64,000 bases of DNA, taken from positions 248,001-312,000 of the forward strand of contig NW_008805077.1 in the NCBI RefSeq assembly GCF_000004825.1, in the 5' to 3' direction. Shown one piece after another: positions 10,362 through 63,296 of the stretch. The DNA is from Heterostelium album PN500 (lineage: Eukaryota > Evosea > Eumycetozoa > Acytosteliales > Acytosteliaceae). Position numbers and translations under genes: made by a program. The number at the start of each line of letters is the position of its first letter. Positions within the stretch are counted from its first letter, which is position 1. Under the pieces are notes generated by a model, which was not told the DNA's origin, searched no databases, and worked only from the letters and a program-made list of their open reading frames with translations.

Positions 10362-12226
10362 TTATTGTATTTTTGTACTTAAAATTTCAACAAGTTTAGA
10401 GTGATGAAATATTCTAGTAATTAAGTTTCCAGAATTTCCTTTGTTTTCATAGTAACCATATAATAAATAATAATTATCATCCAATTTTCTAATAGTTTGT
10501 TTGTGATTAAATCCGAAATTTCCAATGATATTAGTTATTGTTTTAACTGTATTTGGAATGGTGATATTGATATGAGATTGGTACTTATAGACAAGAGTTC
10601 TGACTGAAGATGGTACCAAATCTAATGTTTCATTGAGATCACTCCAACCAAGATCTAGCAACTCGATGGTGTTTGGTAGATTTACTTTAGGTCTATCTTT
10701 GAAACTAAAAACACAAAGTTCTCTTAATGAACAAGATTGATCGTTGGTAGCACCATTGTCATCAAAGTCCATTATCTTCCCATTTGAATTTGACCAGTCA
10801 ATATAAAATTTGATTTTTCCAACACCAGACGGTATCGTTATCTTTTGTTCTTTTGAATTTCCACGTACTATAATTTCATTGATCTTGATGTTTGATGGAA
10901 TTGCATGTATAATCTTATTTTCATATTCCAATAATTCCAAGTGATATTGCGATGTTTCTGGGAATATTTCATCTTTGAATGTATAATCTTCAAAATAGAA
11001 TTTTTTCAATGATGTTGGCATTGTTCCTCTCAATATAGTTCTTGGAACTATAAAATCGAATGATTTTATAGTTGGTGGGAGGTAGTTAACATTGAATATA
11101 GTGTTACCATCTCCTTCTTGATAAGGAAAATAAATAAAAAGTGATTGAAGGTTGGGGAGTGTTGATATTTCTTGTAACCATGAAATAGGCAAGCAAGATT
11201 CCGCTGAATATTGTAAATCTTCTTGATTAGGTTGACTATAATTTTCAAAAGATAAAAATTCAATAGACGATGGGAATACACCTGGTTGCATTTGATATTG
11301 ATATCCATTGCTACTTTCAAGTGAAAAATTGAGTAAACCTTGTGGTAGAACACCTGGTATAATTTCGAAATTATAGCTATAGAGATAACATTTGAGTAAA
11401 CCAACAGGAAGTACACCTGGTTTCAATAAGAAATTATAGAAATTGAGAGAAAATTCAAGCAAACCAACGGGAAGTACACCTGGTTGAATTTCATAATCAT
11501 AGTTATTTAGAGTAAGTGTACGCAAAGCATTTGGAAGTACACCTGGTAGAATCTCTTGTTTGAAACCTCTTCCAAAATCCAATACCTCCAATGAATTGGG
11601 AAGTGATCCTTGCACAAGTGGTTCATTGAAATTGTGGAATTCAATAGATTTGATTGACTTTGGTAATCCATACTTCAGTGTTCTACAACCTTTTAACATT
11701 GTTACTGATTGTGATTCTGATAATAATCTATATAGATACTCCTGATTTTGTTGTATAACAATATCAGTATCAAGTGAAACAACTGAAACATTGCTGGGAA
11801 TACTCTTGAGGTTTCTAGCATCATCTTTGATAATTTTAAAATTAAAATAGTTAGCCTCATAAACAATAATTATCGATAGAATATATATAAAAATAGAAAG
11901 TATTTACCAAAATGATAATCGTAATTATGATAAGTTTTATAACCAATAACAAGCAAACAATCGGTCTTTGATTGAACAGATTTCATAAAGGTATTTTGAT
12001 ATGATGGTAAGTTGAAATGCTTATGATTTTGATTGATATCAGTGGTATTAAGCGAGAAAAGGTCGATACTATCAGTGTTGAATAATAAATATTTATCTCT
12101 ATCTTTGTACCATCTCTTACAAACTAAACTGAAACAAATGATATCGATATTATCATCTAAATAACTTATTATTTTATTTAATATTAAATGTGAAAGATTT
12201 ACTATTTTATCTGTTTGATTATTCAT
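10362..12226 (-). CDS. F-box/FNIP-repeat protein, type A (copy 1)
   Basis: Exon 1 is 12226-11908 (319 nt) and exon 2 is 11824-10362; the 83-bp intron has a GTAAATAC donor and CAAAG acceptor and splits a GAT codon after its G, as in every family member. Product 593 residues. It starts MNNQTDKIVNLSHLILNKII, with an F-box (SLVCKRWYKDRDKYLLFNTD). FNIP repeats follow, with the core LPGVLP-x-x-L (for example IQPGVLPVGLLEFSL), then a C-terminal conserved block IRKLDDNYYLLYG...IFHHSKLVEIL. Predicted SCF adaptor. It is transcribed head-to-head with the type-B copy at 12384, with 157 bp between starts. Confidence 0.85.
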
Positions 12227-12383
12227 TTTAAGTATTGTTAAAATGATCGCAAATTTATTCTAGAAGTTTTTCAAAAATCAGCAATCTAGATATTATTTTA
12301 AAATTATTGGTTCAACAATTTTTTATTACTCTTCAAGTTAGAATTATCATATGAGAGAAATTTCCCATCTTCATCATCCAAAG
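12227..12383. promoter_or_regulatory. shared promoter between divergent FNIP genes
   Basis: 157 bp separate the starts of the minus-strand type-A gene and the plus-strand type-B gene. It contains T-runs (for example around 12320) and no coding signal apart from an alternative in-frame ATG at 12351. A bidirectional promoter is the simplest reading. Confidence 0.45.
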
Positions 12384-14088
12384 ATGTCAGACAACAATAA
12401 TAATTCCACACATAAATTAGTAAATCTACCACATATTTTATTATCAAACATTGTTGATAATTTAACAGATAATATCGATAAGATTTGTTTTAGTTTAGTT
12501 TGTAAAAGATGGTTTGAAAATAGAAATAGATATCTATTGTTTGATACAAACACTTTATATTGTATCGATAAACATAATTCAAGAATCAAATTGAATTCAT
12601 ATAGATCTATAATATCTGAATCACTTAGCAAAAAGAAACAACGTAATATGTATGTCACTCAAGATAAAAATGATATTGGTCATTATGATTATATAATAGA
12701 TTATGGTAATTATATCTTGACAACAATTATTGATTATTATTTTCATCTATATTCAGCTATTATCTTTTTATTTAATAGATTCAATTGTCACTATAGATGA
12801 AATCGATCAAAGCATAGTGACGGTAATACAAAGCATGGAAATGCTGTTAAGAATAGAGCAGGAAAAATTGTTTACAAAACTTTATCAATTGATCAGTAAA
12901 TCGAATGTAACTTGTATAGAGGATTGTCAGACATTAAAGTATGGAATACCAATGAATATCACCTCATTGACATTCAGTTTCGATTTTAATGAACCGCTGT
13001 TCAAAGGTTGTTTTCCACCCAACTTGAAGAAACTAAAGCTTGATGGTACTTTCAATCAGGTGATTGAAGTAGGTGTGTTACCTGATACATTGGAGAAGTT
13101 CGAGACTTCTACTATCAATCAAATATTGGAGCCTGGAGTATTACCGACATCATTGAAGATTTTTAAAATGTTGACTCCGGCACCTGATAACTATCTCAAA
13201 GTTGGATCGCTACCACCAAATCTACAGAAATTCGTTCACTATGGTGGAGAGGATGATAATATTGACCTTAACGTTCTACCAAATTCGCTGATCAAACTCG
13301 ATAGTGTACCTTTGTCATGGATGAAGTCAATCAAGCAACTCGAGAATCTTAGATCACTAATGTTGAAGGAAAGCTCAGGTTTATTAGATCTTGCAGATCT
13401 ACCTAAATCATTGACAAGACTGTACATTTCCTACTCGGTAACATTAAAATCGGCACTACCTACTTCCATAAGACATCTTACTCTTTCCAATTCAAAGTAT
13501 GACATTGATGAATTGTTCCCGGATCGATCACTTTATCATTTGGAAAGTCTACAGCTGTCGGCATTCAAACAAGAATCTCTTGATGGATTGGATATCAAGT
13601 GTTTACGTCTCGTCGATTATCGTAGAGCAGACATTTCCCAATTGATCAGAGCCGTTCCATTTGGTGTTGAAAGGCTTGAAATTGTTTTAGGAGATGGCTT
13701 TGATCTTATCAAACAGAATTCACTTCCATCATCATTGAAAACACTCGATATTGATAATTTAGACAGTTTAACCCGTCCAGGTATTATTCCAAACTCTGTG
13801 AACCATCTTATCATCAGAGATCACAGATCTGGCATTGTTATACCCGAAGGAGTTCTCCCAGACTCTGTTCAAAACATTAAAGTGACAAAAGCTTTGTTTC
13901 CAACCAGTAAAATGGTTGATAATATTACCTTTAAAAATTACAATGGTAAGAAGTGTTCGATTCGAAAACTTGATGATCAATATTACATCGTATTTGGTCA
14001 TCAAAATTACGAATTCATTGCAAGTCTATTCCACAAATCAATGTTTTTAGACAAAGTTAAAGTTCTAAAAATTATTACTGGTAAATAA
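12384..14088 (+). CDS. F-box/FNIP-repeat protein, type B (copy 2)
   Basis: Exons 12384-12705 and 12779-14088, intron 73 bp ending AATAG; 543 residues. The start is the family-conserved ATG (MSDNNNNSTHK); an in-frame ATG at 12351 would add 11 residues. F-box at about 11-47 (ICFSLVCKRWFENRNRYLLF), FNIP-type repeats through about residue 500, and the conserved tail SIRKLDDQYYIVFGHQNYEF. It is closely similar to the copies at 7817 and 14490 along the whole length. Unlike copy 1, its intron contains in-frame stops, so only the spliced form makes a full protein. Predicted substrate adaptor of an SCF ubiquitin ligase in the cytosol or nucleus. Confidence 0.85.
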
Positions 14089-14489
14089 TAATAAACATTT
14101 TCATAATAATAAAAAAAGATAACCAATTTCTTTAATTTGAATTTTTAAATAATTAGTATTTTCTTTTTGAACATATCCTTTACAGTCAGCAAAATTGAAA
14201 AGTGTGGGTTTAAAACAATTTGATCTTTTTTTTTTTTTTGTTTTTTATATTATATGGATCCCATAATGCACAAATTGAATGTCCCCACACCAATTTGGTC
14301 GTAAATTAAAAAAAGTAAAAATTTCAAAAATGGGGGTTAAATTGTTAGTTGGGAAGTTTAACTCACTTTTTTACCACGTTTTTACAAAAAGGTCGTCTGC
14401 GTGACTGAGAAAGATATAAAAAAAATTTTTAACACTTTTGCTATGCATTTCGTATCAATCATTTTTCGTTTCAATTCCTCTACCCAAAG
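14089..14489. other. intergenic region between type-B FNIP copies
   Basis: About 400 bp with a T14 run near 14227-14240 and a small GC-richer patch at 14270-14300. CCTTTACAGTCAGCAA near 14177 loosely recalls the conserved motif of Dictyostelium class I small RNAs but has insertions. TCCCATAA near 14259 resembles the small-RNA upstream element. Neither is convincing. Confidence 0.35.
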
Positions 14490-16171
14490 ATGTCAAACAA
14501 CAATAATAATTCAACACATAAACTAGTAAATCTACCACATATTTTATTATCAACAATTGTTGATAATTTAACAGATAATATCGATAAGATTTGTTTTAGT
14601 TTAGTTTGTAAAAGATGGTTTGACAATAGAAATAGATATCTATTGTTTGATACAAACACTTTATATTGTATCGATAAACATAGTTCAAAAATCACTTTGA
14701 ATTCATATAGATCGATAATATCTGAATCACTTAACAAAAAGAAACAGTGTACTATGTTATTAATTTCACAACATGGCTATATTAATCTTTTTAATCGCTT
14801 TGATCATTTTATAGATATTAGTAAATATTTTCTTACAAATACATTTTTAATTGATAGTTATGTTTCAAAGAGATTAACTTTTCTTTATATTTAATAGATT
14901 CGATTGAAAGTATAGATCAAAACATAGAAACGGTTTCATTTAAGAGATTGTCACTTCGAGATGTCCCAGATAAGCTATTTACTCGACTTTATGATTTGAT
15001 TAGTAAATCAAATGTAAATAAAATGGAGAAGTGTCAGACTTTAAATTATAGAATACCAATGAATATCACCACACTGGTTCTAAACGATTTTTTTAATGAA
15101 CCGTTGTTTAAAGGTTGTTTTCCACCCAACTTGAAGAAACTGAAATTTTATGACTGTTTCTATCAGGCGATTGAAGTAGGTGTGTTACCTGATACATTGG
15201 AGTGTTTAGAGATTTTTCATCTTATTAAGATATTGGAACCTGGAGTATTACCAACATCATTGAAAGTTTTTAGAATCTCTGGTTCAGCACCTGATAACTA
15301 TCTCAAAGTTGGATCGTTACCACCGAATCTACAGGAATTCATTCATAATGGCAAAGATTTTAATATAGATTCAAATGTTCTACCAAATTCATTGATCACA
15401 CTTGAGAGAGTACCAGTGTCATGGATGAAGTCAATCAAGCAACTCGAGAAACTTGAATCACTGTGGCTTACTGAAGGTATTGGTTTATTAGATCTAAGTG
15501 ATCTACCTCAATCACTGACAAGACTGGACATTTCCTGCTCAGTAAATTTACAATCATCATTACCTACTTCAATCAGACATCTGAATATTGCCAAATCCGA
15601 GTATGACATCGATGAATTGTTCCCGGATCGATCACTTTATCATTTGGACTATCTACAGGTTTCACCATTCAAACAGGAATCTCTTGATGGCTTGGATATC
15701 AAGATATTGCGTATCAATGAACATCCTATCATCCCGGGAACACTCAGAGCTATTCCATTTGGCGTTGAAACGCTTGAGATTGCTGCATGGTATGAATTTA
15801 AGTTCAATAAGAATTTACTTCCATCGTCATTGAAAACACTCGATGTTTGCAATATGAGGAGTTTCACACATGCAGGTATTATTCCAAACTCTGTGAATCA
15901 TCTTATCATTCAGAATGGATATGACAGTGATACTGAAGAAGGAATTATCCCAGACTCTATTCAAAACATTAAAATGGGAAGAGTTGCATTTCCAACAAAA
16001 ATGGTTGATAACATTTCATTCGAAGATTTCAGTAATAATAAGTGTTCGATTCGAAAACTTGATGATCAATATTACATTGTGTTTGGTCATGTAAATAACG
16101 AATTCATTGCAAGTCTTTTCCACAAATCAATGTTTTCAGACAAAGCTATAAAAATCCTTAGTGGAAAATAA
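14490..16171 (+). CDS. F-box/FNIP-repeat protein, type B (copy 3)
   Basis: Exons 14490-14820 and 14898-16171, intron 77 bp, phase 1 as in the other copies (here the split codon is AAT instead of GAT); 534 residues. F-box at about 11-47 (SLVCKRWFDNRNRYLLF), FNIP repeats with cores such as LEPGVLPTSLKVF and VGSLPPNLQEF, and the shared tail SIRKLDDQYYIVFGHVNNEF. The region just before the intron (residues about 85-110) is the most diverged part, while exon 2 aligns without large gaps. Predicted SCF adaptor. It is third in a tandem plus-strand set, interrupted by one inverted type-A gene. Confidence 0.85.
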
Positions 16172-34598: not shown

Positions 34599-36116
34599 TT
34601 AATGATAACTATGATATTTATGATGATTATGATGTCTCTTCTTTATGATATATATAATTAATACTAATAGCAGTAAACCAGCTATAGAACCAACGATGAT
34701 ACCTGCAATTGCACCTGGACTAAGTCTACCTTTGGTGGGACAAGAGATTGCAGTGATATCATAGTTACCAGTGAATTTACATCCGGCTCTACCACCGTTC
34801 GAACATGAAACTAAACTATCGGTATCGGAGGTGATGTCGTTGATTGCAATATCAGAGTTATCACAGAAGATAGGATTGGTGGTGCCGTTGATTAGATTTT
34901 TTGAAAAGGTTACTCCGTCGATCGAGTTGGATGCTACGTTGTCGATGTATAGCGCACTACCAGTGCCGTCCGGACCAACAGAGTTACCGGTGACGGTGGT
35001 ATTGGTAAGGCTAAGAGTTTGTGCATCGTAGATGTAAATGGCACCACCCGATTGCTGTGCGTAGTTCGCTGCGATAATACAGTCTGTAATGAACAGTGAA
35101 CCGTGGTTACATACGATGCCACCACCAAATGCCGATGCAAAGTTATTGATAATGAGAGTATCGGTCATTATGAGGGTGTCGATCGAGTTGAAGGAGATCG
35201 GTGCACTTCCAACGTTGTGCGAAATCAACGAGTTGTAGATTTGAACAAAGTTCTCAAACAGTAACATTATACCGCCTACCATTGGATCTACTACTCTCTG
35301 GACAGAGTTGTTGGTGAGAGTCATGTTATTGATAATCACATGATCATTGTTGCTCAATTTCAAGATGGAGCTACCTCCGACGACGTTGGAATCGATGAGG
35401 ACATTGTTCATTTTAAGCGTTCCATTCACTACGTAGATGATACCGTTGAAACCTTGATTCTCAACGATGCTGCTATTGGTGATTGTCAGATGACAGACAT
35501 TGGTGGTAAAGAAAACCGTTCCGTAAGTACCAGAGTTGTTGGTGAACGTTGAGTTGGAAAAGGTGATTGAGGAAGAATTCAGAGTTGACTGGAGAGATAC
35601 GACACCACCGTAGTAAGCATTGCAATTGGAAACAACGACATTCTCCAAAAGTAAAATAGTATTGGAATAGTTAGTAGTTATATAGATGACACCACCGTAG
35701 ACACCGTGGAATCCAGAGCCATTGACAATGTTTAGGTATTGGAGGGTTAGGACGACGTCACCTTGTTTCTGCTGGCTATCCATTATGCTGAAGAGCAAAC
35801 CATTCTGCGCAAGATCGATAGTGGCATAGGTATTTGGATCACCTTGTACAGTGAGTGTTATGTTTACCAAGTTGATGTTTGTGTTGTTTGGACCGGTGTA
35901 TGTGTAATTTCCCAAATCCAGCAGGATATTAGTTGCGTTGGTGGCACTCAGAGCAACAGCGATATTAGGACAAGCATTTTCTGTTGTGTTACCACATGGC
36001 ATAGTGTATTGCGCGATATTTGGATTCAAAATAAACAGTGTTTCCGGCTCTACTTGTGCCTGTACAAGTGTTGAAACACCAAATAATAAAAATAATGAAA
36101 ATATTAAATTAATCAT
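34599..36116 (-). CDS. secretory-pathway beta-helix membrane glycoprotein
   Basis: Single exon, 505 residues. Signal peptide about 1-20 (LIFSLFLLFGVSTLVQAQ). The ectodomain repeats short hydrophobic strands with Asn ladders and motifs such as GGVIYI, GGVVSL, GGGIVC and SGGAIYIYD, typical of right-handed parallel beta-helices (pectin-lyase-like, also seen in polymorphic outer-membrane-type domains). Many NxS/T sites predict N-glycosylation, and cysteines occur at both ends. A transmembrane span lies at about 463-486 (GAIAGIIVGSIAGLLLLVLI), then a short basic tail of KK and many His (KRHHNHHKYHSYH). The position is a type I surface protein. Such proteins are often expanded in dictyostelids; none of the catalytic residues of pectate lyases can be recognised, so an adhesion or recognition role is only a guess. 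Confidence 0.72.
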   Translation of the reverse strand: MINLIFSLFLLFGVSTLVQAQVEPETLFILNPNIAQYTMPCGNTTENACPNIAVALSATNATNILLDLGNYTYTGPNNTNINLVNITLTVQGDPNTYATIDLAQNGLLFSIMDSQQKQGDVVLTLQYLNIVNGSGFHGVYGGVIYITTNYSNTILLLENVVVSNCNAYYGGVVSLQSTLNSSSITFSNSTFTNNSGTYGTVFFTTNVCHLTITNSSIVENQGFNGIIYVVNGTLKMNNVLIDSNVVGGSSILKLSNNDHVIINNMTLTNNSVQRVVDPMVGGIMLLFENFVQIYNSLISHNVGSAPISFNSIDTLIMTDTLIINNFASAFGGGIVCNHGSLFITDCIIAANYAQQSGGAIYIYDAQTLSLTNTTVTGNSVGPDGTGSALYIDNVASNSIDGVTFSKNLINGTTNPIFCDNSDIAINDITSDTDSLVSCSNGGRAGCKFTGNYDITAISCPTKGRLSPGAIAGIIVGSIAGLLLLVLIIYIIKKRHHNHHKYHSYH

Positions 36117-36164
36117 TTTGCAAAAATATATATTATAATTATCTTATTAACTTCTTCTTAGTCA

Positions 36165-38092: not shown

Positions 38093-39970
38093 TTATTGTA
38101 GATTGTTTAAAATTTGATCAAGTTTCGAGTGATGAAATATTCTGGCAATTAATCTTCTGGAGCATTCACCATACATCACATAATAATTATCATCCAACTT
38201 TCTAATAGTTCTTATATTAAACATCTCAAATTTAACAATGAGATTGGTGATCGATTTGATAGTGTTTGAAATGCTTATATTAATTTCAGATTGTTTGTCA
38301 AAGACAAGAGTATTGAGTGATGATGGTATCAAATGTAATATATCATTGAGATCATTGTTACCAATATTCAGATATTCGATGGTGTTTGGTAGTTTAACAA
38401 TTTTAGGTGGTCCATCTTTGAATGTTGGAAGATGTAGCTCTCTTAATGAACACAATGAGTGATCAATAGTATCTTCTCTACCAAATTCGATTGTACTATC
38501 CTTTAAATCTGTCAAAATAAAAGATAATTTGATTTTTCCAAAACCAGTTGGAAGAGTTATCTTTGGTTCTCTTGATTCTCCACGAATTATCAATTCATCG
38601 ATCTTGATGTTTGATGGAATCAATTTAATAATATTATTTTCACATTCCATAAATTCCAAGTGATATTTCTTAGTTTCTGGATATATTTCATTGATATTAT
38701 ATTGACAATCAAGATATATTGATTTCAATGATGTTGGCATTGTTCCTCTCAATGCCGTTCCTCTCAATGTAAAATAGAATGTTTTTAGAGTTGGTGGTAG
38801 GTAGTTGACATTGAATATAGTGTTATCGTGGCCAACTTCATGGAAAATATAAATTGAAAGTGATTGAAGATTGGAAAGTGATGATATTGCTTGTAACCAT
38901 GAAATTGGTAAAAATGATTTGCCTGAATATTGTAAATCTTCGAGGTTTGTTTCTACAGGTTCTACTGGTGGATTAAAACTATCAATTGATAAATATTCAA
39001 GAGACGATGGTAATACACCTGGCTGAATATCATATTGAAATCCAAAGCTGCTTCCAAATGAAAATTCGCGCAGACCATCCGGGAGTACGCCCGGTTTAAT
39101 TTCGAAACCATAGAAACTGAGTGATAGTCTTTTTAAACCAACTGGAAGTATACCTGGTAGAATTTCATGTTGGTATTTGAAAAGAGATAGTACACGTAAA
39201 CCAACTGGCAGTACACCTGCTTGAATTAGATGTTGATAGTTGTTCAAATAAAGTTTGTGCAAACCAACTGGAAGTACGCCTGGTAGAATCTCTTGTTTGA
39301 AAAATCTGTCTTCAAAATTTATGATCTCTAATGTATTGGGAAGTGATCCTTTAAAAAGTGGTTCATTGAAATTGTTAAATATAATAGATTTGATTGACTT
39401 TGGTAATCCATACTTCAATGTGTTGCATCCATTCAACACTGTTACTGATTGTGATTCTAATATTAATCTATAGAGATACTCTTGATCAGCTTCTAAATCA
39501 TATTTAGTCGTAACATAGACTGTTGTAACATTACTAGGAATACTTTTGAGACATCTAAGATCATCTTTGATCATTTTAAAATTAAAATAGTCAGGTTCAT
39601 AGTAATATGATAAGTATCAATAGAATATATTTAAAATTTAACGATATTTACCATATTGATAATCGTAAATATGATATTTGTTGTAACCAATAACGAGTGT
39701 AAAATCAATCTTTGATTGAATTGATTTCATAAAGATATTGTTATATGATGGTAATTTGAAATGATTATGATTTTGATTGATATCATTGGTGTTAACTGAA
39801 AATATGTTGATATTATCAGTGTTGAATATTAAATATTTATCTCTATCGTTGTACCATCTCTTACAAACTAAACTGAAACAAATGATATCAATGTTATCCT
39901 TCAAAAAACTAACTATTTTATTTAATATTAAATGTGAAAGATTTACTATTTTATCTGTTTGATTATTCAT
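38093..39970 (-). CDS. F-box/FNIP-repeat protein, type A (copy 2)
   Basis: Exon 1 39970-39652 (319 nt), exon 2 39564-38093; intron 87 bp with the family's CAAAG acceptor; 596 residues. N-terminal F-box (ICFSLVCKRWYNDRDKYLIF). A linker contains YLYRLILESQSVTVLNGCNT. Six or more FNIP repeats have the core ILPGVLPVGL-x-x-L and are very even in spacing. A second, less regular solenoid follows, then the tail IRKLDDNYYVMYGE...IFHHSKLDQIL. Predicted SCF adaptor. Closest in the window to the type-A copy at 10362-12226. One repeat reads LPGILPVGL, otherwise the solenoid is intact. Confidence 0.85.
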
Positions 39971-44860: not shown

Positions 44861-46628
44861 ATGAACAATCAAACAGATAAAATAGTAAATCTTTCACATT
44901 TAATATTAAATAAAATAGTTAGTTATTTAGAGTATGATATTGATATCATTTGTTTCAGTTTAGTTTGTAAGAGATGGTACAACGATAGAGATAAATATTT
45001 AGTATTCAACACTAATAATATCAACCTATTTACACTTAATACCACTGATATTAATCAAAATCATAAACATTTCAACTTACCATCATATAATAATATCTTG
45101 TTGAAATCGATTCAATCAAAGACTAAATGTACACTCATTATTGGTAAAATAAAATATTATACATTCGATTATCATTATGGTAAATATCTTTAAATTTTAA
45201 AAGATTAACTATTGATTAATTTTAAACTGACTATATTTTTTTTTATCTATAGATGATGTTAGAAATCTCAAGAGTATTCCCAACAATGTTTCAGTTATCG
45301 ATATTACAACTAACGAATATACAGAGGATGATATGGAGTATCTCTACAGGTTAATATCGGAATCACAATCAGTAACAAAGTTGAAAGGATGCAGCACATT
45401 GAAATATGGATTACCAAAGTCAATCAAATCTATCAAATTTAAATATTATTTCGATGAACCACTGGATAAAGGATTACTTCCCAATACATTAGAGGTGTTA
45501 GATTTTGAAGATCCTCTGGAGCAAGAGATTCCACCAGGTGTACTTCCAGATGCTTTGCGCAAACTTTCTCTAAACAACTATCAATATGAATTTCTACCGT
45601 GTGTACTTCCAAGTGGTCTAAGCAAAATCGATCTTAACAACTATCAACATACAATTCTACCGGGTGTACTTCCAAGTGGTTTACGCTACCTAAATCTACA
45701 AAACTATGAATTAGAAATTCTACCAGGTGTACTTCCTGATGGTTTGCAGAAATTTACTCTTGATGGTTATCGACATGAATTTCAACCAGGTGTACTTCCA
45801 TCTTCTCTCAAAAGTTTATCGCTTACGAATTACACCTCTTCACTCAAAGCTGATTTACGATATTCTATCGATTCGACAGCAAGTGAAGATAGTACGGAAA
45901 CCGAATCCTACTTACCAATTTCATGGTTACAAGCAATATCATCACTTTCCAATCTTCAGTCACTCTACATTTTTATTCCCATGAGCAGTCAACATGATAC
46001 CACAATATTCAATCTCAACTATCTCCCACCAACTTTAGAAACACTAGATATTACACTACAAGGAAAAGATAGCGTATTATTGAAAGGAGCAATGCCAACA
46101 TCATTGAAAAGTATCCATTTTACAGATTGTCGATTCAATATCGATGAAATATTCCCAGAAACGCTGCAATATCACTTGGAAATATTCTATTATAGAAATG
46201 ACAGTTTTCCTCCAATTCCATCAAACATTAAGATCGATAGTTTATCGGTATCTGGTGATCACAGACTATCAAAAATAGTTCTACCAACTGGTATTAGAAC
46301 AATCAACTTATATATGGGATCATGGGGTTCAGATGAGAACAGTATAGATTTTGGTTTTGATGGTGTTGCCGATCAAAGATGTTCATTAAGAGAACTTCGT
46401 CTTCCAACATTCGTAAATGGACCTCCTAAATTTAAACTACCAACCACCATCGAATATCTGGATATTGGTAACAATGATCTCAATGATATATTACATTTGA
46501 TACCATCAACACTCAACACACTTGAATTTGAAAACCAATCTAATAAGAATATCAGCATTCCAAACACTATCAAATCAATCAACAATATCATCTATAGATT
46601 TAAGTCATTTCAAACACTAATCAATTAG
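44861..46628 (+). CDS. F-box/FNIP-repeat protein, type A (copy 3), tail frameshifted
   Basis: Exon 1 44861-45179 (319 nt), exon 2 45253-46628; 564 residues. F-box (SLVCKRWYNDRDKYLVF), five evenly spaced FNIP repeats (cores such as IPPGVLPDALRKL and ILPGVLPDGLQKF) and a second solenoid region. Compared with the copy at 51765, one extra A in CACTAATCAATTAG (about 46618) shifts the frame, so the protein stops at 46628. The conserved tail IRKLDDNYYLLYSE...IFHQSKLEQIF is left in another frame up to TAA at 46755. Either a recent truncation or an assembly error. If real, the F-box and repeats remain and only the tail is lost. Confidence 0.75.
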
Positions 46629-47157
46629 AAAGTTGGACGATAATTATTATTTATTATATTCTGAAAATCAATGTTCACCCAAAGGAAAATTAATAGCTCG
46701 AATATTTCATCAATCTAAACTTGAACAAATCTTTAGAAAATTCTATATATATTAAGAAAGTCGAATTTTTTACTTATATTTATTTGTTTTTTATTATCAT
46801 TATCCAAAGTTATTCTATTATGAGAATAAATGTTTCAATCTATGAATCTAGATTGAATGTAATTAATTTTAAATTATAAAATAGAAATTCTAAAAATAAG
46901 GAATTTGACACAAGATCTAATTTTATTTCATCATATATTATAGGGAACTTAATCTACTCCCAATTATCTAGTCTTTATACAATTATTTAAACTAGAATCA
47001 ACTCATTAATCTTTTATTCTTATCTAGCATTTCAATCTATTCTCTATTACACTAAAACGTATACAAATCCAACACAAAACTGGCTCTTGATTGTTGTTTG
47101 AAGCCACGTAGTAAGATACTGTTAACAACCTACAGATCATTTATTTTGAGCATTAAA
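46629..47157. other. lost FNIP tail and intergenic region
   Basis: 46629-46755 holds the out-of-frame tail of the preceding gene. The remainder is AT-rich and leads to the next FNIP copy; an in-frame ATG-less extension begins near 47098. Nothing else is seen. Confidence 0.5.
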
Positions 47158-49033
47158 ATGAATAATCAAATAGATAAAATAGTAAACCTTTCACATTTAA
47201 TATTAAATAAAATAGTTAATTATTTAGATAATAACATTGATATCATTTGCTTCAGTTTAGCTTGTAAGAGATGGTACAATGATAGAGATAAATATTTAGT
47301 ATTCAACACTGATAATATCGACTTATTTACATTTAATACCACTGATACCAATCAAAATCATAAGCATTTCAAATTACCATCATATAATAATATCTTGTTG
47401 AAATCAATTCAATCAAAAACCAAATGTACACTCTCTGTTGGCTATAACCAAAAAACCAGTTATGACTATCATTTCGGTAATATTATCTATTTATTAAAGA
47501 TATTTTATTATGTATTGTTGAAACTGATTATTTTAATTTTAAAAATATCAAAGATGATGTTAGAAATCTCAAAAGTATTCCCAACAGTGTTTCAACAATC
47601 GAAATTCTATCTGATAGAGAGGATGAACAGGAGTATCTGTATAGATTAATATCAGAATCACAATCAGTAACAAAGCTGAATGGATGCAGCACATTGAAAT
47701 ATGGATTACCAAAGTCAATCAAATCACTAAAGATGGAATTCGAATTCAATGAGCCACTCGCTAAAGGATTACTTCCCAATTCATTGGAGGTGTTAGATTT
47801 TGAAGATCCTCTCAAACAAGAGATTCCACCAGGTGTACTTCCAGATGCTTTGCGCAAACTTTATCTTGACCGATATCGATATGAATTTCTGCCAGGTGTC
47901 TTCCAGTTGGTTTGCATAGCATTCATCTATTCAACCATAAACATGATATTCGACAAGGTGTATTTCCAAGTGGTTTGAGCAAACTTTATCTACTCAACTA
48001 TCAATATGAAATTCTACAAGGTGCACTTCCTGATGGTTTGCAGAAATTTAATCTAGATGGTTATCAACATGAAATTCAACCGGGTGTACTTCCTTCATCT
48101 CTAAAAAGTTTATCTCTTACCAGTTACAGTTACAGCCGTCCAATCAAAGAAGAATTAAAATATTCAATCGATTCTGCTCCAATAAGTGAAGATAGTACGG
48201 AAACCGAATCTTTTTTGCCAATTTCATGGTTACAAGCAATATCATCACTTTCCAATCTTCGATCACTTGACATTTATTATCCCATACACAATCGACATGA
48301 TACCATAATATTCAATCTCAATTACCTCCCACCAACTTTAGAAACACTAGATATTACACTAAAAATCAAAAAGAGCATATTGAAAGGAACAATGCCAACA
48401 TCATTGAAGAAAATACGTCTTGTTGATTGTCCGATTTAATATCTATGAAATATTCCCAGAAACGTTGCAATATCACTTGGAAAAATTTAATTATATAAAC
48501 GACAGTTTTCTTCCAATTCCATCAAACGTAAATATCGATATTTTATCAGTATCTGGAGATGAATCACCGATTTCTCTTCCATCTGGTGTTAGAGCAATCA
48601 ACTTATACATGGTAGCCTCTGGTTCAGATGAGAACAATATTAACTTTGGTTTTGATGGTGATAACGATCAAACATGTTCATTAAGAGAACTTCGTCTTCC
48701 AACATTCATAGATGGACCTCCTAAATTTAAACTACCAACCACCATCGAATATCTGGATATTGGTAACAATGATCTAGATGATATATTACATTTGTTACCA
48801 CCAACACTCAATACTCTTGTCTTTGAAAAACTATCTAATAACATTATCAGCATTCCAAATGCTATCAAATCATCTATAGATTTAAGAAAAATCAAAACCA
48901 AACAATTAGAAAGTTAGACGATAATTATAATTTATTATATTCTGAAAATGAATGTTCACCTAGAGGAAAATTAATCGCTAAAATGGTCAATCAATCTAAA
49001 CTAGAGTTAATTTTTAGTAAAGGAATAGAATAA
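47158..49033 (+). pseudogene. broken F-box/FNIP gene, type A (copy 4)
   Basis: Exon 1 47158-47476 (319 nt) and the start of exon 2 (47554) are intact and encode the F-box (SLACKRWYNDRDKYLVF) and first FNIP repeats. The frame then breaks: one base is missing near 47898 (GGTGTCTTCCAG versus GGTGTACTTCC in paralogues), one C is gained near 48432 (GATTGTCCGATT), and a further shift near 48890 leaves the tail IRKLDDNYNLLYSE in another frame up to TAA at about 49031. Between breaks the frames are clean, so inactivation looks recent. Sequencing error would need three independent events, so a true pseudogene is more likely. Confidence 0.75.
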
Positions 49034-51764: not shown

Positions 51765-53505
51765 ATGATCAATCAAACAGATAAAATAGTAAATCTTTCA
51801 CATTTAATATTAAATAAAATAGTTAGTTTTTTGAAGGATAACATTGATATCATTTGTTTCAGTTTAGTTTGTAAGAGATGGTACAACGATAGAGATAAAT
51901 ATTTATTATTCAACACTGATCGTATCGATCTATTATCACTTAACAACATTGATATAAATCAAAATCATAATCATTTCAAATTACCATCATATAATAATAT
52001 CTTGTTGAAATCAATTCAATCAAAGACAAAATGTAAACTCTTTATTGGTAAAATAAAATATAATACATTCGATTATCATTATGGTAAATATCTTCAATTT
52101 ACAAAAGATTTTCTATTGATTTTTTAACTTACTATATAAAATTATCAAAGATGATGTTAGAAATCTCAAAAGTATTCCCAACAATGTTTCAGATATCTAT
52201 TTTACAACCAACGAATATACAGAGGATGATATGGAGTATCTCTATAGATTAATATCGGAATCACAATCAGTAACAAAGTTGAATAGATGTAAGACATTGA
52301 AATATGGATTACCAAAGTCAATCAAATCTCTCAAGTATGAATATGGTGTAGATGAACCACTTGTTAAAGGATTACTTCCCAATTCATTAGAGGTTTTAGT
52401 TTTAGAAGATCGAAATTTCAAACAAGAGATTCCACCAGGTGTACTTCCAGATTCTTTGCGCAAACTTTATCTACCCAACTATCAATATAAAATTCAGCCA
52501 GGTGTACTTCCAAATGGTTTGCAGAAATTTTCTATGGATGGTTATCGACATGAAATTCAACCAGGTCTATTGCCATCATCTCTCAAAAGTTTAGGTCTGA
52601 CCAGTTACACCTCCGAACTCAGGGAATATTTGAGATATTCCTTCAATCCCACCACATTTGGAGATAGTAGAGAACCGAAATCATATTTACCAATTTCATG
52701 GTTACATGCAATATCATCACTTTCCAATCTTCGATCACTTTACATTTTTATTCCCCTGAGCAGTCGACATGATACCACAATATTCAATCTCAACTATCTC
52801 CCACCAACTTTAGAAAAACTAGATATTACACTACAAGGAAAAGAGAGTATATTGAAAGGAACAATGCCAACATCATTGAAAAGAATCCTTCTTGTAGATT
52901 GTCAATTTAAGTTCGATGAAATATTCCCAGAAACGCTGCAATATCACTTGGAAATATTCTATTTTATAAATGACAGTTTTATTCCAATTCCGCCGAATAT
53001 TAAGATCGATAGTTTATCAGTATGTGGAGAGACCATCAAATCAACGATATCTCTACCATCTGGAGTTAGATCAATCAACTTATATATGAAATCCTCTGGT
53101 TCAGATGAGAACAATATAGATTTTTGTGGAGATGGTGTTGCCGATCAAAGATGTTCATTAAGAGAACTTCGTCTTCCAACATTCGTGGATGGACCTCCCA
53201 AAGTTAAACTACCAAAAACCATCGAATATCTGGATATTGGTAACAATAATCTCAATGATATATTGCATTTGATACCATCAACACTCAATACTCTCGTCTT
53301 TGAAAACCAATCTAATAACAATTTCAGCATTCCAAACACTATCAAATCAATCAACAATATCATCTATAGATTTAAATCATACGAAACACTATCAATTAGA
53401 AAGTTGGACAATAATTATTATTTATTATATTCCGAAAATGAAGGTAGATTAAGATCTCAAATATTTCATCAATCTAAACTTGAACAAATGTTAAAATTCA
53501 GATAA
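51765..53505 (+). CDS. F-box/FNIP-repeat protein, type A (copy 5)
   Basis: Exon 1 51765-52083 (319 nt when the second of two adjacent ATGs is used, matching paralogues), exon 2 52151-53505; intron 67 bp; 557 residues. F-box (ICFSLVCKRWYNDRDKYLLF). It has fewer regular FNIP repeats than its relatives (IPPGVLPDSLRKL, IQPGVLPNGLQKF, IQPGLLPSSLKSL), so about two units have been lost compared with the copy at 44861. The conserved tail IRKLDNNYYLLYSENEGRLR is in frame and complete. Predicted SCF adaptor. This copy is the reference that shows the frame breaks in the two preceding genes. Confidence 0.85.
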
Positions 53506-54207: not shown

Positions 54208-54353
54208 ATTACATTTTTATTGGTTGGGTCACTCCAATTCCTCCAAAAAATGAAAAAATTTTGCAATAAGTGGAGCACTCTAATTTTGCAATAAGTGGAG
54301 CACTCTAATTTTGTGAACTTCAAAATGTGTAATTACATTTTTATTGGTTGGGT
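54208..54353. repeat. nested direct repeats
   Basis: A 25-bp unit (core GCAATAAGTGGAGCACTCTA) is tandemly duplicated at 54257-54306. It is flanked by two copies of ATTACATTTTTATTGGTTGG at 54208 and 54332, about 124 bp apart. This looks like two rounds of local duplication. Confidence 0.75.
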
Positions 54354-54785: not shown

Positions 54786-57700
54786 ATGAAATCTATTAAA
54801 CTATCATTAATTTTAATATTAGTGATAGTTCATTTATTTCATAGTACCACAAATGCTTTTACTATCACCAGAATATCAGAGAGGATTGCTTATGTCGGTG
54901 GTGGCAATCGGTTTAGAATAGAATCACCCGATTTCCCTGGTGTTAATCTAACACCGACGTTGAAAGTTATCAATGGTGCTAAGGAAGCGGTTTTTATCTA
55001 TAGAGGTCAGATTCCTGCCACCAATATCTACGAGTGGGATGTACCTCCAAAACCAGTTAATCTAGCAATTGCAAAAAAGAGAGGAAGAGATGATGATTCC
55101 CAAGTAAAGCTTTATATAATATTAGCTAATACCCTAGATCCTTTATATCAATATGATTTTAACTATGTCAGTAAGTATTATACACAGCCGAGATAAAATT
55201 AATTAATTAATATCCAATCAACTAATTTACCAAATTTAATATAATATATTTTAGCTCCTGAAATTGAAGGATTCACTCCAAAGAGTAACTATATACATCA
55301 AGCTGGAACGTCGGTAACTATCACCGGTAATTACTTCAAGTTGAACGATTATGATCCTTCACCACAAGTGAATTTCGGTGCTAGTCCAGCGGTGGTTATA
55401 ACATCGGCAAGTGGATTCAAAATTATTTGTGTTGCACCAACCGTTGACATTGTTGGCAATGTCATGCTTAAAGTTACATTCCCCACTGGTCTAGAGATTA
55501 AAGGTGATACAGCATTTGAGAATATCATGCCAAATGTCGATACTGTTGTACCAGATAAAGCTGTCAGCCAAGTCAGTAAGAACATAAAGATCTACGGTAG
55601 AATCAGAGTTTCAGAGGATGACAAACCATTTACCACCGTCAGGATTGGTGATCAACCGTGCACCAACATCAGATTCCTCCAACAAGATGTCATTTCTTGT
55701 GATACACCTCAGATTGCAGTGGCTGCCGGATTATCTACACCCTTTGATATCACCATTCAAATTAGAGCAACTGTATTTCCTCATGCTAGATTTACAGTTT
55801 ATAGTATGTAATACCATTCTTTTTATATTTATTACTTTGTAGATGATTCATTACTTATTTAGAATTATTATCGTATGATAAATATAGATCCTGTCATTTC
55901 CAACTTTATACCTAAATTTGGTTTGTCTACTGGTGGTACCAGAGTGGTTGTGACTGGAAGACATTTCCATGATATTACTACTATCGATGCCGTAAGAATT
56001 GGTACTTCTGTGTGTGTTATCGATCTTATTTCTTATTATAAGGATCTTATTACTCAGGTTGAATCGTTTTCTTGTACCACTGGCTCTTATGATATAGGAG
56101 GAGCTACCGAGCAAGTGAGTAATTTCAATGTCATCATTGACGGCCAGACTTTTATTGCTAGTGTGAATCCTTCTTTCACTTACTATGTTCCAACTATCAC
56201 ATCGATAGAGCCAACTTTCGTCACCGGCAACATAAGAACACCAATTTTTATCCGTGGAAATTACCTTACATCCGTTACCAAAGTAACGATTGGTGCAGTC
56301 GATTACGTACCGGGTTCCGTTCTAGATAATGTGGTCAGTGTTGTGATAGATTCTTCCAAACATCCCGCTGGAATTTATCAAGTCTCTGTCGTCACTCTGA
56401 ATGTCTTGACCAACAAATTCAATTTAGATTTTGGACCACCTGACATTGTTGATATCAACATCAAAAAAGGATTCATCAATTCCTACACTGCGGTAACATT
56501 CATAGTTCGTAGTTTTCCAGTTGTTCCACTCGAGGATCTCGATGATGCCATTGCCTTTAAGATTGGCGCTCAGTATTGCGAATATTTAGAGAGAACCTCC
56601 AACAATGAATACACATGCTCCGTGCCACCAAAGGGTAGTGTTTCGACCGATGTCATTTCTTTTTTCATCAACGGTGAAGAAAAGAGAACTACCATTAGTT
56701 TCAACTATGCCGTTCCAACTGTTACCGCTCAGACTCAATCTACCGACATTCCATTGGGTGGCGGTAATCTTGTTATCGATGGACTTGGATTAAACTTTGT
56801 GACCTCCATCAAATTTGACACCACTGAAATCAAGATTACAACTTGTACTGTAAATGGTGAAATTAAGATTACTTGTCCAATTCCAAGATACAAACCAGGA
56901 AGTTATCCAGTTTCGTTGGTTGTCAATGCCAATGGTATGGATTACTCGTATCTAACAGGGCATAATCTTGCCTATGTCGGTCCGTCCATTACCACAGTGA
57001 ATCCAAAACAATCAACCAAGTACCAGGTTCATAGAATCACTCTGACTGGAACTGGATTCGGTACATCAGCTGCGTTAATATCGATAAACATTGGTGCCAA
57101 TGCATGTAATAATATCGCGATTATTACAAACGATGTAAAAGTAACATGTAGCATTGACGTTTTGGCTTTTGGAAGGTATCCAGTCACAATCACTGTCCAA
57201 CCCAATGCGCTCTCTCCCGGTGTTGTATCTTCCAATGTTGTTTCCTATAGTTCAACTAAATTGTCTTGCTTGGGACGCTCTCAGCCAGATAAAACCAACG
57301 ATCCAGTCGACTGGTGGTTAATTTATAAGATCAGAGGAGATGCTACAAATGATTATTTGTATATCGATTCTACAATGCAAAAGTTCGAGAGACTTAGTAA
57401 TCTTCAAAACCATCCCAATACTGCAGATGTGTTGTCTCCACTCGAAGCCACCTTTCAGGTGTCATTGACCAACTACTACTATATGTTTTTCAATGATCAA
57501 CCTAACTCCAGAGTTGACTCAGGAGCAAGGTCTAAAGAAAAAACTTATCTTGGTATGAGACAAAATCAAAACGGCGATAAATCAGAAGGTCATTTCAAAA
57601 CTTCGGTTTTTTTTGACGATCCTGATCCAATTACAAACTTGGTAGGTGGTATTCATATTGCTCATTCAAATCCAGGTAAATATATATATATATATATATA

Positions 57701-60700
57701 AAAAAAAATGTTAATTATCAAAGCATTAATTATTTTCTTTTTTAAAAGCTTTTCCATCCAATATAGATGCAAATAACTATAATGGTCCTGCTCAGGGTAT
57801 CAAATTCCTTGGTAAAGCAGATTTCAATCAACATTTCTTTTGTTATCCATTCGATAATCTTGAAAATGTCATGGAGTATGTTTTAAAGAACGATGGAAAT
57901 CTTCTAACCGGATACCATATCTTCCAAGATATAAGAACTTGGTTACAAACTAAAATGAATCAATATCCATACTTCTATGATTTCATCTCTCACTACCTCG
58001 ATTACACAGTGCGTGTGCCAGCTGTCAACACTCCACCAAGAATGACACCAAAGACTTTATTGGCAGCTTGTAATAACAGAGTTGGCAATACAGCAGGACT
58101 GACCCTGGAGAATATTTGTTGGTGGAGAAAGGATCCAATTGTGATTCCTAATACTAATATGAACCTAATTTATTTCATGAAGATTGGAACTAGCTATACT
58201 CCTGCAAACTCCCCATTCAGAAATCTTAACGAAGATGAATTAAAGGAAATTTCGGAATTCATTGTACCCAAAGAAAAAATGATCGATGGAGTAGATCTTT
58301 GGTTGGTCGTAGCGAATTCGTTCCAAAAGAAATATTTTGTTGAATTTTTTTTTGGAACAAAATTTGTGCAAATGAAAGTCACAGAGAAAGTCTTAAACGT
58401 TGCTTATTTCGAGCTACCACCCACCTATGCTAAAACGGTTCCATTGAAATCACTTTCTTCGGATTATCATTTCAGTGGAAGATCTAAGGTGTGTATCAGG
58501 AAAAGATAAACATAACGTACAACAAACTTATTCCCAAAATTAAATTATAAATATAGGAACATGCGAAAATGGGATTTCCAGTTTATCCAACTTTTGGTGA
58601 TAATGCACTTGGACCAAATGGTATTTAAATTATATTAATATAATATCTAATATGTATTATAAATCAATGATTAACTAAATTTATTATTATTTTTTTAAAA
58701 CTTAAAAAATAGAAAACTATTTCTGTGTTGGTGACAGCAATAGACATAATGGTCAAGGTAAATATTTAGTTAAAGAATATTAATAAATTTAAAATTAGAA
58801 AACAAACTAACCAAAGAAAATGAATAATTATATAATTTAGGTGACAGAGGTGGTGGTGTAATTTGTATACAGAACCCATATTTAGTTTATTTCTTTAATC
58901 GAATGGTTAGAGCATATAATACTAAGAATAATAAGGATAGATTAACAGACAAGACTGATACTATTGGATTATTCTATGGAGTTACACAACCAATTAAAGT
59001 AATGAGAGGCACCTGGACAAAGACATTCGAAGTGGAGGTGAAGGATTTCATCAATGGAAACCATTATTCCAAGCTTCCAAAAGAAATCTACCCGATTCTC
59101 AGTGGTACAGGAACAGCTGCTACCGATACCAATGCAAAGTTCAATGCTCTAAGAACCAGTAAAAACTTTGCCGTGAGTCCTAGTAATGGTGAGGTAACTG
59201 TTGTACCGGTTCCACCAACTCTACCAAATCAACAGGACATCTTGAACTTTGTTGCCAATGATTTGCTATCACTTCATTACATAGGTTATGATCAAACGGT
59301 CGGTGCCATTTGTGACTACAATGCAGCAATGACCGAATGTACTAAAGCTGCCTCTAGAACAACGATGATTACCAATGTCAGACCTGCCAACTATGTTCAA
59401 CCACATTTCCCAGGAGTATATGCTCATGTCTATGCTGGTGTGCAACCATTGAAATCCTATGACGTGACAACCAACAATAATTTCAAGCTAATCAAATTCA
59501 CCTCTGAATTTATGACTAAGCTTCCCAATGCCAAGCGAAACTTTTATCAATACCAATATGATGCCATACCAACTTTGGCCAATCCTCAATTCAAACCACC
59601 ATTTATCATTCGACAGGCCGATGTTGTATGTGAAGAGGAAGTTGCTTACTTTATGACACTTCACTATATCTATTATCAATCTGGTGCACCTGATCCAGCA
59701 TTACTAGTATACAAGATTGGTACTGATCTACCCAATTGGGCAAATGGTGTAATTCTAGCAATATCCAAACAACTCTATAATGTAACTATTATTTAACCAA
59801 AGTTTAGAAATTTGATTATTAATTTAACCAACTAATTTTAAATAGGAATTAAAACCAAGTGTAACACCAGCTGTTTTCAATGGTTGTATGAATAATATTT
59901 TCAACAATTTCCCAAATATTGATACATATACAGAGTAAGTTTATTTTTAAATTAAAATATTAGTGAACTTAAAATATTAATATTCTTTGAATAATATATT
60001 ATAGTGATAATGATATGGCTAATCCAAGTAATGATAAACTAGTAAGAAGAAGTGCTGGTGCTGCTTGGGATTGGATGCAGACTTCATATTCAAATGGAGT
60101 TGGTGGTAAAATAGATAGAGCAAATAATAATCAACGTATTCTTGTCGCTGATTTAATTGATGCAATAATCAAGGCCAGACAGAATGGACGTATTCGAACA
60201 ATGAAGAACCTAAAGAGATTCATAAAGAGAGAGTACATTCCAACAAACTTTGACGATATTCTGGTCAATAACTATATCATTCCAAGACCACTTGTTGTTT
60301 TAAGAACACTGCCAATGTTATTCATGCAGAGTCCATCGCTATATCATTCCCAATCTTTGTTGACTACTTCAACTTCTCCATCGGATCAGAAATCATTTAT
60401 TGTTCAAGATGAACGATCTACACTATCTGGTGTTCAGCAATTATTACTTTTAGTTGGGTCGAGCTCGATGAATTCAACTGATATTCTATCACTCTCAGCC
60501 TATCAAGTAGAGAAATTGAAGCTATCATTCGATAAATGGATAAATGTCAATGGACAAAGTCAAGCTATTCAAACACTTATCCTGGATCCATCCAATCAGG
60601 TTAGAAATCAACCGATCAGATTTATCGATGAGCTGAATCGTGATCTCGATGGAAATTCAATTGACCTTAAATATCAAGAGATTGGTTCCACCGGTGCAAT

Positions 60701-62273
60701 CAGAGCAACCATTTCATCTCCATTGTCGATTGTTTCCATTACTTTCTTCCTGGAGAGTATTATCATTAGTAAATCAATTAGTAAATCACAGTTTGGTGAT
60801 TTCGAAGTTTATTATCTTCCAAAGAAAATCAATTACAACGGTGTAATCTCTTCAGATATAAATGGAATGATAATCTCGACAATGAACTCGCAATTATGTG
60901 ATATTCAAATGATTAGTGAATCAAACTTCCTTTCAAACAACTTTGACACTGTTTGTTCTACTATTGGTCCAGTTATTACCTCGGTAAATCAATTAAGTGG
61001 ATCGTCCAACGGTGGATACACGATAACTGTAAATGGAATTGGATTTAATTCATCAATGACCATTCTCATTGGATCGAATGAATGTGTTTCCACTCAATAC
61101 ATTTCACAAAGTAAATTATTTTGTCAAGTACCAAAAGGTGTTGGTAAAAACAATGAAATTCTATTGTCAACTCCTCAAATGATTTTCAATCTTCAACGTA
61201 CAAAATACTTGTTCAACTACGATGCACCAGTAATTACCAGTGTGGAACCAGATATTATCAAGAGCTATGGAAGTGATTTAATGACAATCTACGGATCAAA
61301 CTTTGGCGATGATGTAACAAATGTTAAGATTCTAATTGATGAAAGATTGGCTTGCTCACCAATTGTTAGTTTAACCTCAGATTCTGTTGCTTGTCTAACT
61401 CCTGCTGCTATTGGCGACCATAGATCTATCACTGTCATTGTCAAAGACCAACCTTCAAAATTGAATCTCAATACGCTGGAAACTCAATCCTTTAGTTTCA
61501 GTGGTCCACAAATTCTTAGTTTTATTCCATCATCCGGTGATCCAACCGATAGTATTAGAATTCTTGGTGATGGATTTGGACATGAAGAAGATTCAGATCT
61601 ACCTCCACTCCTAATCATTGGTGATAATATGGTTGAAATTAGCAATTTTACCAACCAATTCATCGAGTTCCAATTGGAATATGACAACGCCAATCAACCT
61701 TTAATCATTCAAGCTGGTGACCAATCTATTGATACAGAGTTCACTTATTATCCTCCGTTGGTAACTTTCATCAAAAACTCTATTATCAGTACAAGTGGTG
61801 GATTAATTCAACTTGGTGGATATGGTCTTAGTCTAGCATCGTCGAATGACTTTGAATTCCAATTAAATTCCCAAGAAATCGATTGTAATCCATTCGATCT
61901 CTTTATTGAATGTTTTATTCCACCAGGTACTGGATCGAATTACATTCTATCGGCCACACTATCCAATGGTGAACCAATTGAATTCGCAGAGAATATCATC
62001 ATTTCCTATTCAGCACCAGTAATTACAGGTCACACTCTCGTACAAGACACCACTTCAATAGAAATCATTGGAGTTAATTTCGTACCATTGGAATATGGCA
62101 TAACCATCAACACTAGCTCATCATTTATAAGATTGAATTATCAAGATCTTCAATATGAAGACTGCACAACATTCAAATCAAGCAAATTAGCATTCTGTTC
62201 ATACACAGAATTACCTCAATCCATTCAAATTTTTGTGTCTGGACAATCATCAAACATTTATTCTTTATATTGA
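54786..62273 (+). CDS. secreted TIG/IPT-repeat protein with an embedded DNase II domain
   Basis: Nine exons by frame and splice motifs: 54786-55170, 55255-55803, 55888-57675, 57749-58488, 58557-58620, 58713-58757, 58841-59781, 59846-59934 and 60005-62273; 2,289 residues. Signal peptide about 1-24. Residues 25-765 hold about eight TIG/IPT-like Ig domains (for example PKFGLSTGGTRVVVTG). Residues about 766-1215 match DNase II throughout: LSCLGRSQP...PVDWWLIYKI, FFNDQPN, EGHFKTSVFFD, IAHSNPAFPS, the H-x-K pair in KEHAKMGF, and FCVGDSNR...RGGGVICIQNP. Catalytic His and Lys positions are kept. About 640 residues of unknown fold follow, then about five more TIG domains (for example GPVITSVNQLSGSSNGGYTI). 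There is no C-terminal membrane span. It should be a secreted or lysosomal acid endonuclease that acts without metal. The domain order is, to my knowledge, unusual. Confidence 0.8.
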
Positions 62274-63107
62274 AATAAATTAGACTATTTAAATAGAAAT
62301 AAATTAGTTTGTTTAAATAGAACAAATAATTCTTCATAGTAATTATCTAATTAACCAAAAAATAATAGTCTTCCTATTTTTATTTTAACATAATTATTAA
62401 TTTTAACACCTTCTTTGTGAACACTATCTTAATATAAAAAAAGATTGTTTTTAAGATTTTATTATATTCTTTTGAATTTAAAGATTAAAAAGTACTATAA
62501 TTTTAATTTGTACTAATATTTAATATCCCTACACAAATTTAGTACTTTTTGATATCATGTTTATTTGATTTATACTAATATTCTAGTAAGATCGACAATT
62601 CTTCTAATCTTTTATTAAATTATACAATGATTCTTCTATATAGGTACTCTACTTAACACAAACGAAAAATATCTTTACCACATTTATTTTTTATTTCTAA
62701 TATACCCCAAAACAAATCATAGATATATCTAATGGGGTGTTATAACATTTTTAGAATATGTGTGTGTAAAACGAATATTAAAATAAAGATATGAATATAA
62801 ATGTTTCAATTGGAACAACAAATGAAATAATCTGTTGATTAAAAGTTTTAGGTCATTTTTTCTATTTTAGTCTAATCTTGAACTACTCTCTCTTATTGTT
62901 ATTATCTTAATTTGATTTGCTATTGTTTATGTTATTAATAAATATTAATATTAAGATGCTATTTTATTATAAAAGTTTGATATTAGACAAAGTTATAAGA
63001 CTTCTCTTAAACTATAAATAGAAACGATAAAGACTATTAAATCATTACAATATAATTAAAAGTATTTAAATATTTTCAACTAAAGCTAAAGCTAAACTAA
63101 AACTAAA
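62274..63107. other. intergenic region and peptide-gene promoter
   Basis: About 830 bp of AT-rich DNA. TATAAATA at 63013-63020 lies 88 bp before the next ATG. The leader just before the ATG contains repeated AAAGCTA/AACTAAA units. Nothing else is seen. Confidence 0.5.
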
Positions 63108-63296
63108 ATGAACAAGTTCTTAATCTTTGTATTCTTTGCTATGGTATTACTCTCTGCTGTATCAGCCAACTACGATTGCTTTGCCAATTGCCATAGAGAC
63201 TACAACAACTGTGTTGTCGCCAAATTAAGAAACCCAACTAACAACTATGCTGATTGTGTCGATCAAGTCTACAGATGCTACAATGGTTGCAGATAA
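63108..63296 (+). CDS. small secreted cysteine-rich peptide
   Basis: Single exon, 62 residues. Signal peptide about 1-20 (MNKFLIFVFFAMVLLSAVSA) and a 42-residue mature peptide with six cysteines in a mirror-symmetric pattern: C-x3-C-x6-C-x14-C-x6-C-x3-C. This fits two helices joined by a turn (LRNPTNN) and three ladder-like disulfides, an extended form of the alpha-hairpinin (twin C-x3-C) fold. Net charge is near neutral to slightly positive. Plausible roles are antimicrobial, protease-inhibitory or signalling; none can be chosen. A TATA box and an A-rich leader precede the ATG, and AATAAA-like signals follow the stop, so it looks like a real, probably well-expressed gene. Confidence 0.75.
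   Translation: MNKFLIFVFFAMVLLSAVSANYDCFANCHRDYNNCVVAKLRNPTNNYADCVDQVYRCYNGCR

Follow-up and report, generated by a model that had tools for sequence, protein, structure and literature searches.

A predicted large secreted protein of Heterostelium album PN500 that joins a DNase II domain to TIG arrays

Introduction

A gene of Heterostelium album PN500 raises the question of whether a DNase II can be built into one large secreted protein, next to arrays of TIG domains, and whether it would act there as an enzyme. DNase II is known chiefly as a small enzyme, lysosomal or secreted, that stands alone and usually has about 350 residues. It has been described as an acidic endonuclease (PMC4148230) and is known from Dictyostelium (PMC4148230, PMC4349608, PMC5982838). 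The dictyostelid tgr proteins with IPT/TIG domains were assigned to the cell adhesion category, and IPT/TIG proteins are abundant in this group of organisms, with 110 in Polysphondylium pallidum according to the apparent columns of the published table (PMC4931340). The gene was analysed within a stretch of 64,000 nucleotides, hereafter the window, and three points are considered: how far the coding sequence holds together, whether the DNase II domain has kept its catalytic residues, and what the arrays might contribute.

Results

The gene spans 54786-62273 on the plus strand, with the start codon at 54786 and the stop codon ending at 62273, and was modelled from sequence alone as nine exons separated by eight GT-AG introns. 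The spliced coding sequence is open throughout and encodes 2289 residues (~254 kDa). The introns are 64-92 bases long and their GC content is 9-25%, compared with 28-40% in the exons and 31% in the whole 64-kb window. The eight introns proposed in an earlier note on this DNA agree with the model in their GT-AG ends, shortness, and low GC. A codon-usage score was trained on exons 3, 4, 7, and 9, and it was positive in the chosen frame for all the exons left out of training (1, 2, 5, 6, and 8). For exons 5 and 6 another frame was also weakly positive (0.14 and 0.22, against 0.82 and 0.53 in the chosen frame). All introns scored negative in every frame, a result that is partly circular since the introns belonged to the background.

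The first exon (54786-55170) encodes a signal-peptide-like N terminus (residues 1 to ~24), as the earlier note had read it, followed by a segment, U0 (residues 25-128), without a Pfam TIG match. After intron 1 (55171-55254, GTAAGT...TTTTAG, 84 bases, 19% GC), exon 2 (55255-55803) carries the TIG domains U1 and U2 (residues 129-312), and after intron 2 (55804-55887, 84 bases, 19% GC), exon 3 (55888-57675) carries U3-U7 (residues 313-767). The second array lies in exon 9 (60005-62273) and consists of D1-D2 (residues 1855-2034), a marginal D3 (2035-2117), and possibly diverged D4-D5 (2118-2289), after which the stop codon is reached. The Pfam TIG profile (PF01833) matched the whole protein well above chance (E = 1.7e-65, nine stretches), and U1-U7 (residues 129-767) and D1-D2 exceeded the cut-off, that is, nine of the 13 candidate segments. 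Tandem TIG domains above the cut-off place the protein among the IPT/TIG proteins. D3 reached 14.9 bits, under the cut-off of 20.9 bits, and U0, D4, and D5 gave no TIG match when searched segment by segment with Pfam. A home-made profile of the nine supported domains was compared with a background of 350 shuffled controls, the best of which scored 11.5 bits. None of D3 (9.0 bits), D5 (7.0), and D4 (2.8) rose above that score; U0 was absent among the best 30 rows of this search and did not exceed shuffled sequence either. D4 and D5 resemble the other TIG segments in length and in their cysteine pair, and they may be diverged TIG domains. Two arrays are therefore present as the earlier note claimed, but of its eight upstream and five downstream TIG domains the Pfam cut-off supports seven and two, respectively. 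The two arrays are alike (U6-U7 against D1-D2, E = 1.8e-9). In nine of the 13 segments two cysteines stand 9-20 residues apart, and such paired cysteines fit a protein that would be extracellular.

The 15 most hydrophobic 19-residue stretches of the protein fall in the signal peptide, near residues 174-185, and near residue 1770. Three of these 15 score above 1.6 and lie beyond the signal peptide, beginning at residues 174, 1770, and 1774. They may be buried strands, although a membrane segment is also possible, and the stretch near 1770 contains a glutamate. By this plain hydropathy scan no C-terminal membrane anchor was seen, as none of the 15 stretches lies in the C-terminal array. Tgr-type receptors have their membrane anchor near the C terminus. 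The tgrB1, tgrC1, and tgrD1 proteins have TIG domains in common with the protein studied here, but they serve in cell-surface recognition, whereas this protein has an enzyme domain and, by hydropathy, no clear C-terminal anchor.

The DNase II domain extends approximately over residues 776-1205 and is spread over exons 3 to 7. Its N-terminal part, with H880, K882, and H904, follows U7 unbroken in exon 3. Intron 3 (57676-57748, 73 bases, 10% GC) leads to exon 4 (57749-58488), which encodes the middle of the domain, includes residues without a Burkholderia counterpart, and has no Pfam match of its own. Intron 4 (58489-58556, GTGTGT...ATATAG, 68 bases, 25% GC) is followed by exon 5 (58557-58620, 64 bases) with the second HxK motif (H1156, K1158), and intron 5 (58621-58712, 92 bases, 9% GC) by exon 6 (58713-58757, 45 bases) with the CVGDSNR motif. 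Both of these short exons are backed by homology because DNase II motifs lie inside them. After intron 6 (58758-58840, 83 bases, 13% GC), exon 7 (58841-59781) contains the end of the domain with RGGG (domain border at about residue 1205) and the start of a region without domains. The Pfam DNase_II profile (PF03265) matched the whole protein with E = 6.4e-27 and 95 bits against a cut-off of 23, and the excised domain with E = 9.1e-29 and 101.1 bits; an NCBIfam scan of the domain gave no match. The landmark residues are DWW at 786, FFNDQP at 845, GHFK at 879, HSNP at 904, EHAK at 1155, CVGD at 1180, and RGGG at 1193, so the landmark set that had been reported between the TIG arrays was located and carries a profile match over the cut-off.

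For comparison, the domain was aligned (MAFFT) with the DNase II of Burkholderia pyrrocinia (L001, 351 residues, Pfam E = 1.4e-75). The two are 29% identical, and the domain is hence divergent, but H880, K882, H904, H1156, K1158, CVGD.NR, and RGGG are invariant, and two HxK motifs are kept (H880-F-K882 and H1156-A-K1158). The aligned piece has 451 residues against 351 in Burkholderia, and the approximately 100 extra residues lie mostly in exon 4. The closest PDB sequence was 5i3e, 'Putative deoxyribonuclease-2', with a whole-sequence E of 1.7e-4 over two stretches, the better of which alone gave 0.039. The entries 5i3e and 5unb represent a Burkholderia enzyme, a solved DNase II relative. A tblastn match of the domain showed 21.7% identity (E = 2e-3). 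In a plasmid search for relatives of the domain, one Burkholderia plasmid gene was found; scans of prokaryote contigs gave 29 and 140 candidate stretches and a scan of viral contigs gave one, with none confirmed.

Between the DNase II and the second array, approximately 650 residues (1206-1854) have no assignable domain, and this stretch, which exceeds the nuclease in size, is omitted by the earlier description of a DNase II between two TIG arrays. Pieces of it gave no Pfam match over the curated cut-off (the best outside the DNase II end was IFRD, E = 0.042), no NCBIfam match over the curated cut-off (best TIGR04562, E = 0.044), no good match to PDB sequences (E of 0.2 at best), and nothing among plasmids. 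Comparison of the protein with itself showed only 12 residues in common with the DNase II piece, due to an overlapping cut, and one weak match to the TIG array (E = 0.68). Single-sequence structure prediction gave a mean pLDDT of 29.0 for residues 1192-1504 and 33.8 for residues 1535-1849, values too low for a fold comparison.

Exon 7 is connected to exon 9 through intron 7 (59782-59845, GTAACT...AAATAG, 64 bases, 17% GC), exon 8 (59846-59934, 89 bases), which lies inside the region without domains, and intron 8 (59935-60004, GTAAGT...TTATAG, 70 bases, 11% GC). This join was picked by eye on its splice sites. When all joins from exon 7 to exon 9 were enumerated (donors at 59700-59799, no intron shorter than 50 bases), the frame of exon 9 was preserved within these limits by 36 joins with two introns and by two with a single intron. 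A GTA donor together with a CAG, TAG, or AAG acceptor occurs in 16 of the 36 two-intron joins, including the chosen one. Introns 7 and 8 are thus a good-looking choice that we infer, and other joins are possible. Retention of intron 7 would lead to a stop after four extra residues (59782-59796), and a shorter TIG-DNase II form ending about halfway through the region without domains would be a possible alternative product.

The window contains 39 open frames of at least 150 codons, and Pfam was run on ten of them; FNIP-repeat and ankyrin proteins were among these and, taken with the short AT-rich introns, are what a dictyostelid genome would show. FNIP-type genes form a cluster on both strands (7751-16171, 38093-39616, 45231-48917, and 52120-53505), assigned by Pfam FNIP for two frames (52120-53502 and 10365-11903) and by resemblance for the others. 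The frame at 34602-36143 on the minus strand matches Pfam Beta_helix (E = 3.6e-8) and encodes a protein of the right-handed beta-helix type, which closes with a hydrophobic segment and a tail rich in histidine. Upstream of the gene, a 25-base unit was seen by eye in two adjoining copies (54264-54313). Just 3' of the gene, at 63105-63296 on the plus strand, a 63-residue frame begins like a signal peptide, contains six cysteines, and resembles a cysteine-rich secreted peptide; its Pfam match is weak (Fungus-induced, E = 0.22).

Discussion

Whether the locus encodes one protein depends on its two junctions, and these differ in strength. The upstream junction lies within exon 3, which is open over 595 codons and by itself encodes five TIG domains and approximately the first 140 residues of the DNase II. 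Because the TIG domains and the start of the nuclease share one open exon, the upstream fusion is firm as judged from the DNA. The downstream link, which runs from the DNase II through introns 7 and 8 to the second TIG array, is less sure but probably part of the same protein. The single secreted TIG and DNase II protein of the earlier note therefore stands firmly on its upstream side and probably on its downstream side. It is also conceivable, but quite unlikely, that there are two adjoining genes, namely one for a secreted DNase II with a TIG array, complete after exon 7 (~1508 residues), and a second one that begins in exon 9 and encodes a short series of TIG domains. The frame of exon 7 does reach a stop within intron 7 (59794-59796), exon 9 is open over 756 codons with the stop codon counted, and the number of in-frame joins means that the link between exons 7 and 9 is not forced. 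On the other hand, exon 8 has a positive coding score when read in the joined frame but in neither of the alternative frames, and introns 7 and 8 are short and AT-rich like the other six. Moreover, an extracellular TIG protein would need a signal peptide, but none of the nine in-frame ATGs within the initial kilobase of exon 9 begins a stretch that matches the real start in hydrophobicity (1.82 at best, compared with 3.61), which makes a separate secreted gene there less likely. A fusion of unrelated pieces of the genome during assembly would be a highly improbable cause of the architecture. It is true that the analysis is based on one genomic window and that no second copy was found, but none would be expected in the plasmid, prokaryote, and viral collections that were searched; the TIG-DNase II junction falls within a single open exon, and the upstream and downstream arrays are alike.

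If the locus is read as one protein, the next question is whether its nuclease would be active. In porcine DNase II, the attack was ascribed to His297 and proton donation to His115, and a title cited in the same source names His115, His132, and His297 as crucial (PMC11430429). H1156 is taken here as the equivalent of His297 and H880 as that of His115, with the Burkholderia enzyme, not the porcine one, as alignment partner. Likewise, H904 of the HSNP motif is presumably the counterpart of His132; it was aligned here only with the invariant Burkholderia histidine. The Trichinella DNase II-7, in which the active histidine is replaced, was reported to be without activity, and the classical active site is described as missing from the Trichinella DNase II-like family of approximately 125 members (PMC10249883). 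Both that family and the protein studied here are secreted relatives of DNase II, but as far as the family is described there, the active site is kept only here. Since the HxK motifs and H904 are kept, and the Trichinella member without the histidine is inactive, the copy is probably an active enzyme. We regard as unlikely the alternative that catalysis has been largely or wholly lost and that the DNase II fold now serves a surface or matrix adhesin as a structural part or for binding DNA. Such a change has a precedent in the inactive Trichinella member, the domain is divergent and longer than that of Burkholderia, and the IPT/TIG tgr proteins belong to the adhesion category. However, both HxK motifs and H904 are retained, unlike in the Trichinella members with a replaced active histidine.

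We hypothesize, with fair but not high confidence, that the product of the gene is a secreted acid DNase set within an adhesin-like rod of TIG domains, which would cut DNA by the DNase II route; the domains, the motifs, and the upstream continuity can be read directly in the DNA. The order of the protein would be signal peptide, seven or perhaps eight TIG domains, DNase II, approximately 650 residues, and two to five TIG domains. After entering the secretory pathway, the TIG arrays would act as disulfide-stapled rods that keep the enzyme attached to a surface or ligand. DNA cleavage would be independent of metal, with H1156 forming a phospho-histidine and H880 serving as acid and base. Its substrate would be the DNA of food bacteria or debris bound by the TIG arrays. 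The likeliest site of action would be a phagosome, a lysosome, or an extracellular acid spot, because DNase II chemistry favours acid pH, and for an acidic DNase II the phagosome appears to be a better fit than neutral surroundings.

The arrays may aim the enzyme at a surface, a matrix, bacterial DNA, or DNA nets. S cells of D. discoideum were shown to cast DNA nets that are used against bacteria, whose viability rose on addition of DNase I (PMC4773522). It would mean that a secreted DNase needs control, and that any action directed at nets would come late, as a clean-up. Phagosomal digestion of prey DNA would thus be simpler than a role directed at nets. A more elaborate possibility, which we consider rather doubtful, is a self-tethered nuclease whose arrays bind prey bacteria or the DNA nets and matrix of the amoeba itself and whose DNase II is activated by a drop in pH, in the phagosome or at an infection focus in the multicellular stage. 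Capture and digestion of particles that carry DNA would then be combined in one protein, and the region of approximately 650 residues would be a third module for binding or control.

By comparing the protein with known systems, it shares with the DNase II family (PF03265) the profile match, both HxK motifs, HS.P, CVGD.NR, and RGGG. The usual enzyme stands alone, with 351 residues in the Burkholderia case, whereas here ~430-450 residues lie within a protein of 2289. The dictyostelid orthologous group OG5 153020, with 9 Ddis, 43 Asub, 35 Ppal, and 50 Dfas members, combines IPT/TIG with other extracellular modules (EGF-like, C-type lectin), and the text on this group names no nuclease (PMC4334915). 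No description of a DNase II and TIG architecture was found among the open-licence papers listed, for Dictyostelium and family-wide, eukaryote protein collections being outside the scope of the search; nor were PF03265 and PF01833 found together in open-licence papers, among the matches listed. A co-mention of deoxyribonuclease II and IPT in the Dictyostelium literature was set aside, as IPT stands for IPTG in the matching text. DNase II and IPT/TIG proteins are each known in dictyostelids, and their combination may be listed in a domain database.

Conclusion

An apparently intact DNase II within a giant TIG protein that is predicted to be secreted raises the possibility that amoebae direct DNA digestion by physical tethering. 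As the DNA nets of Dictyostelium kill bacteria, the gene would make the clearance of net DNA and of prey DNA testable.
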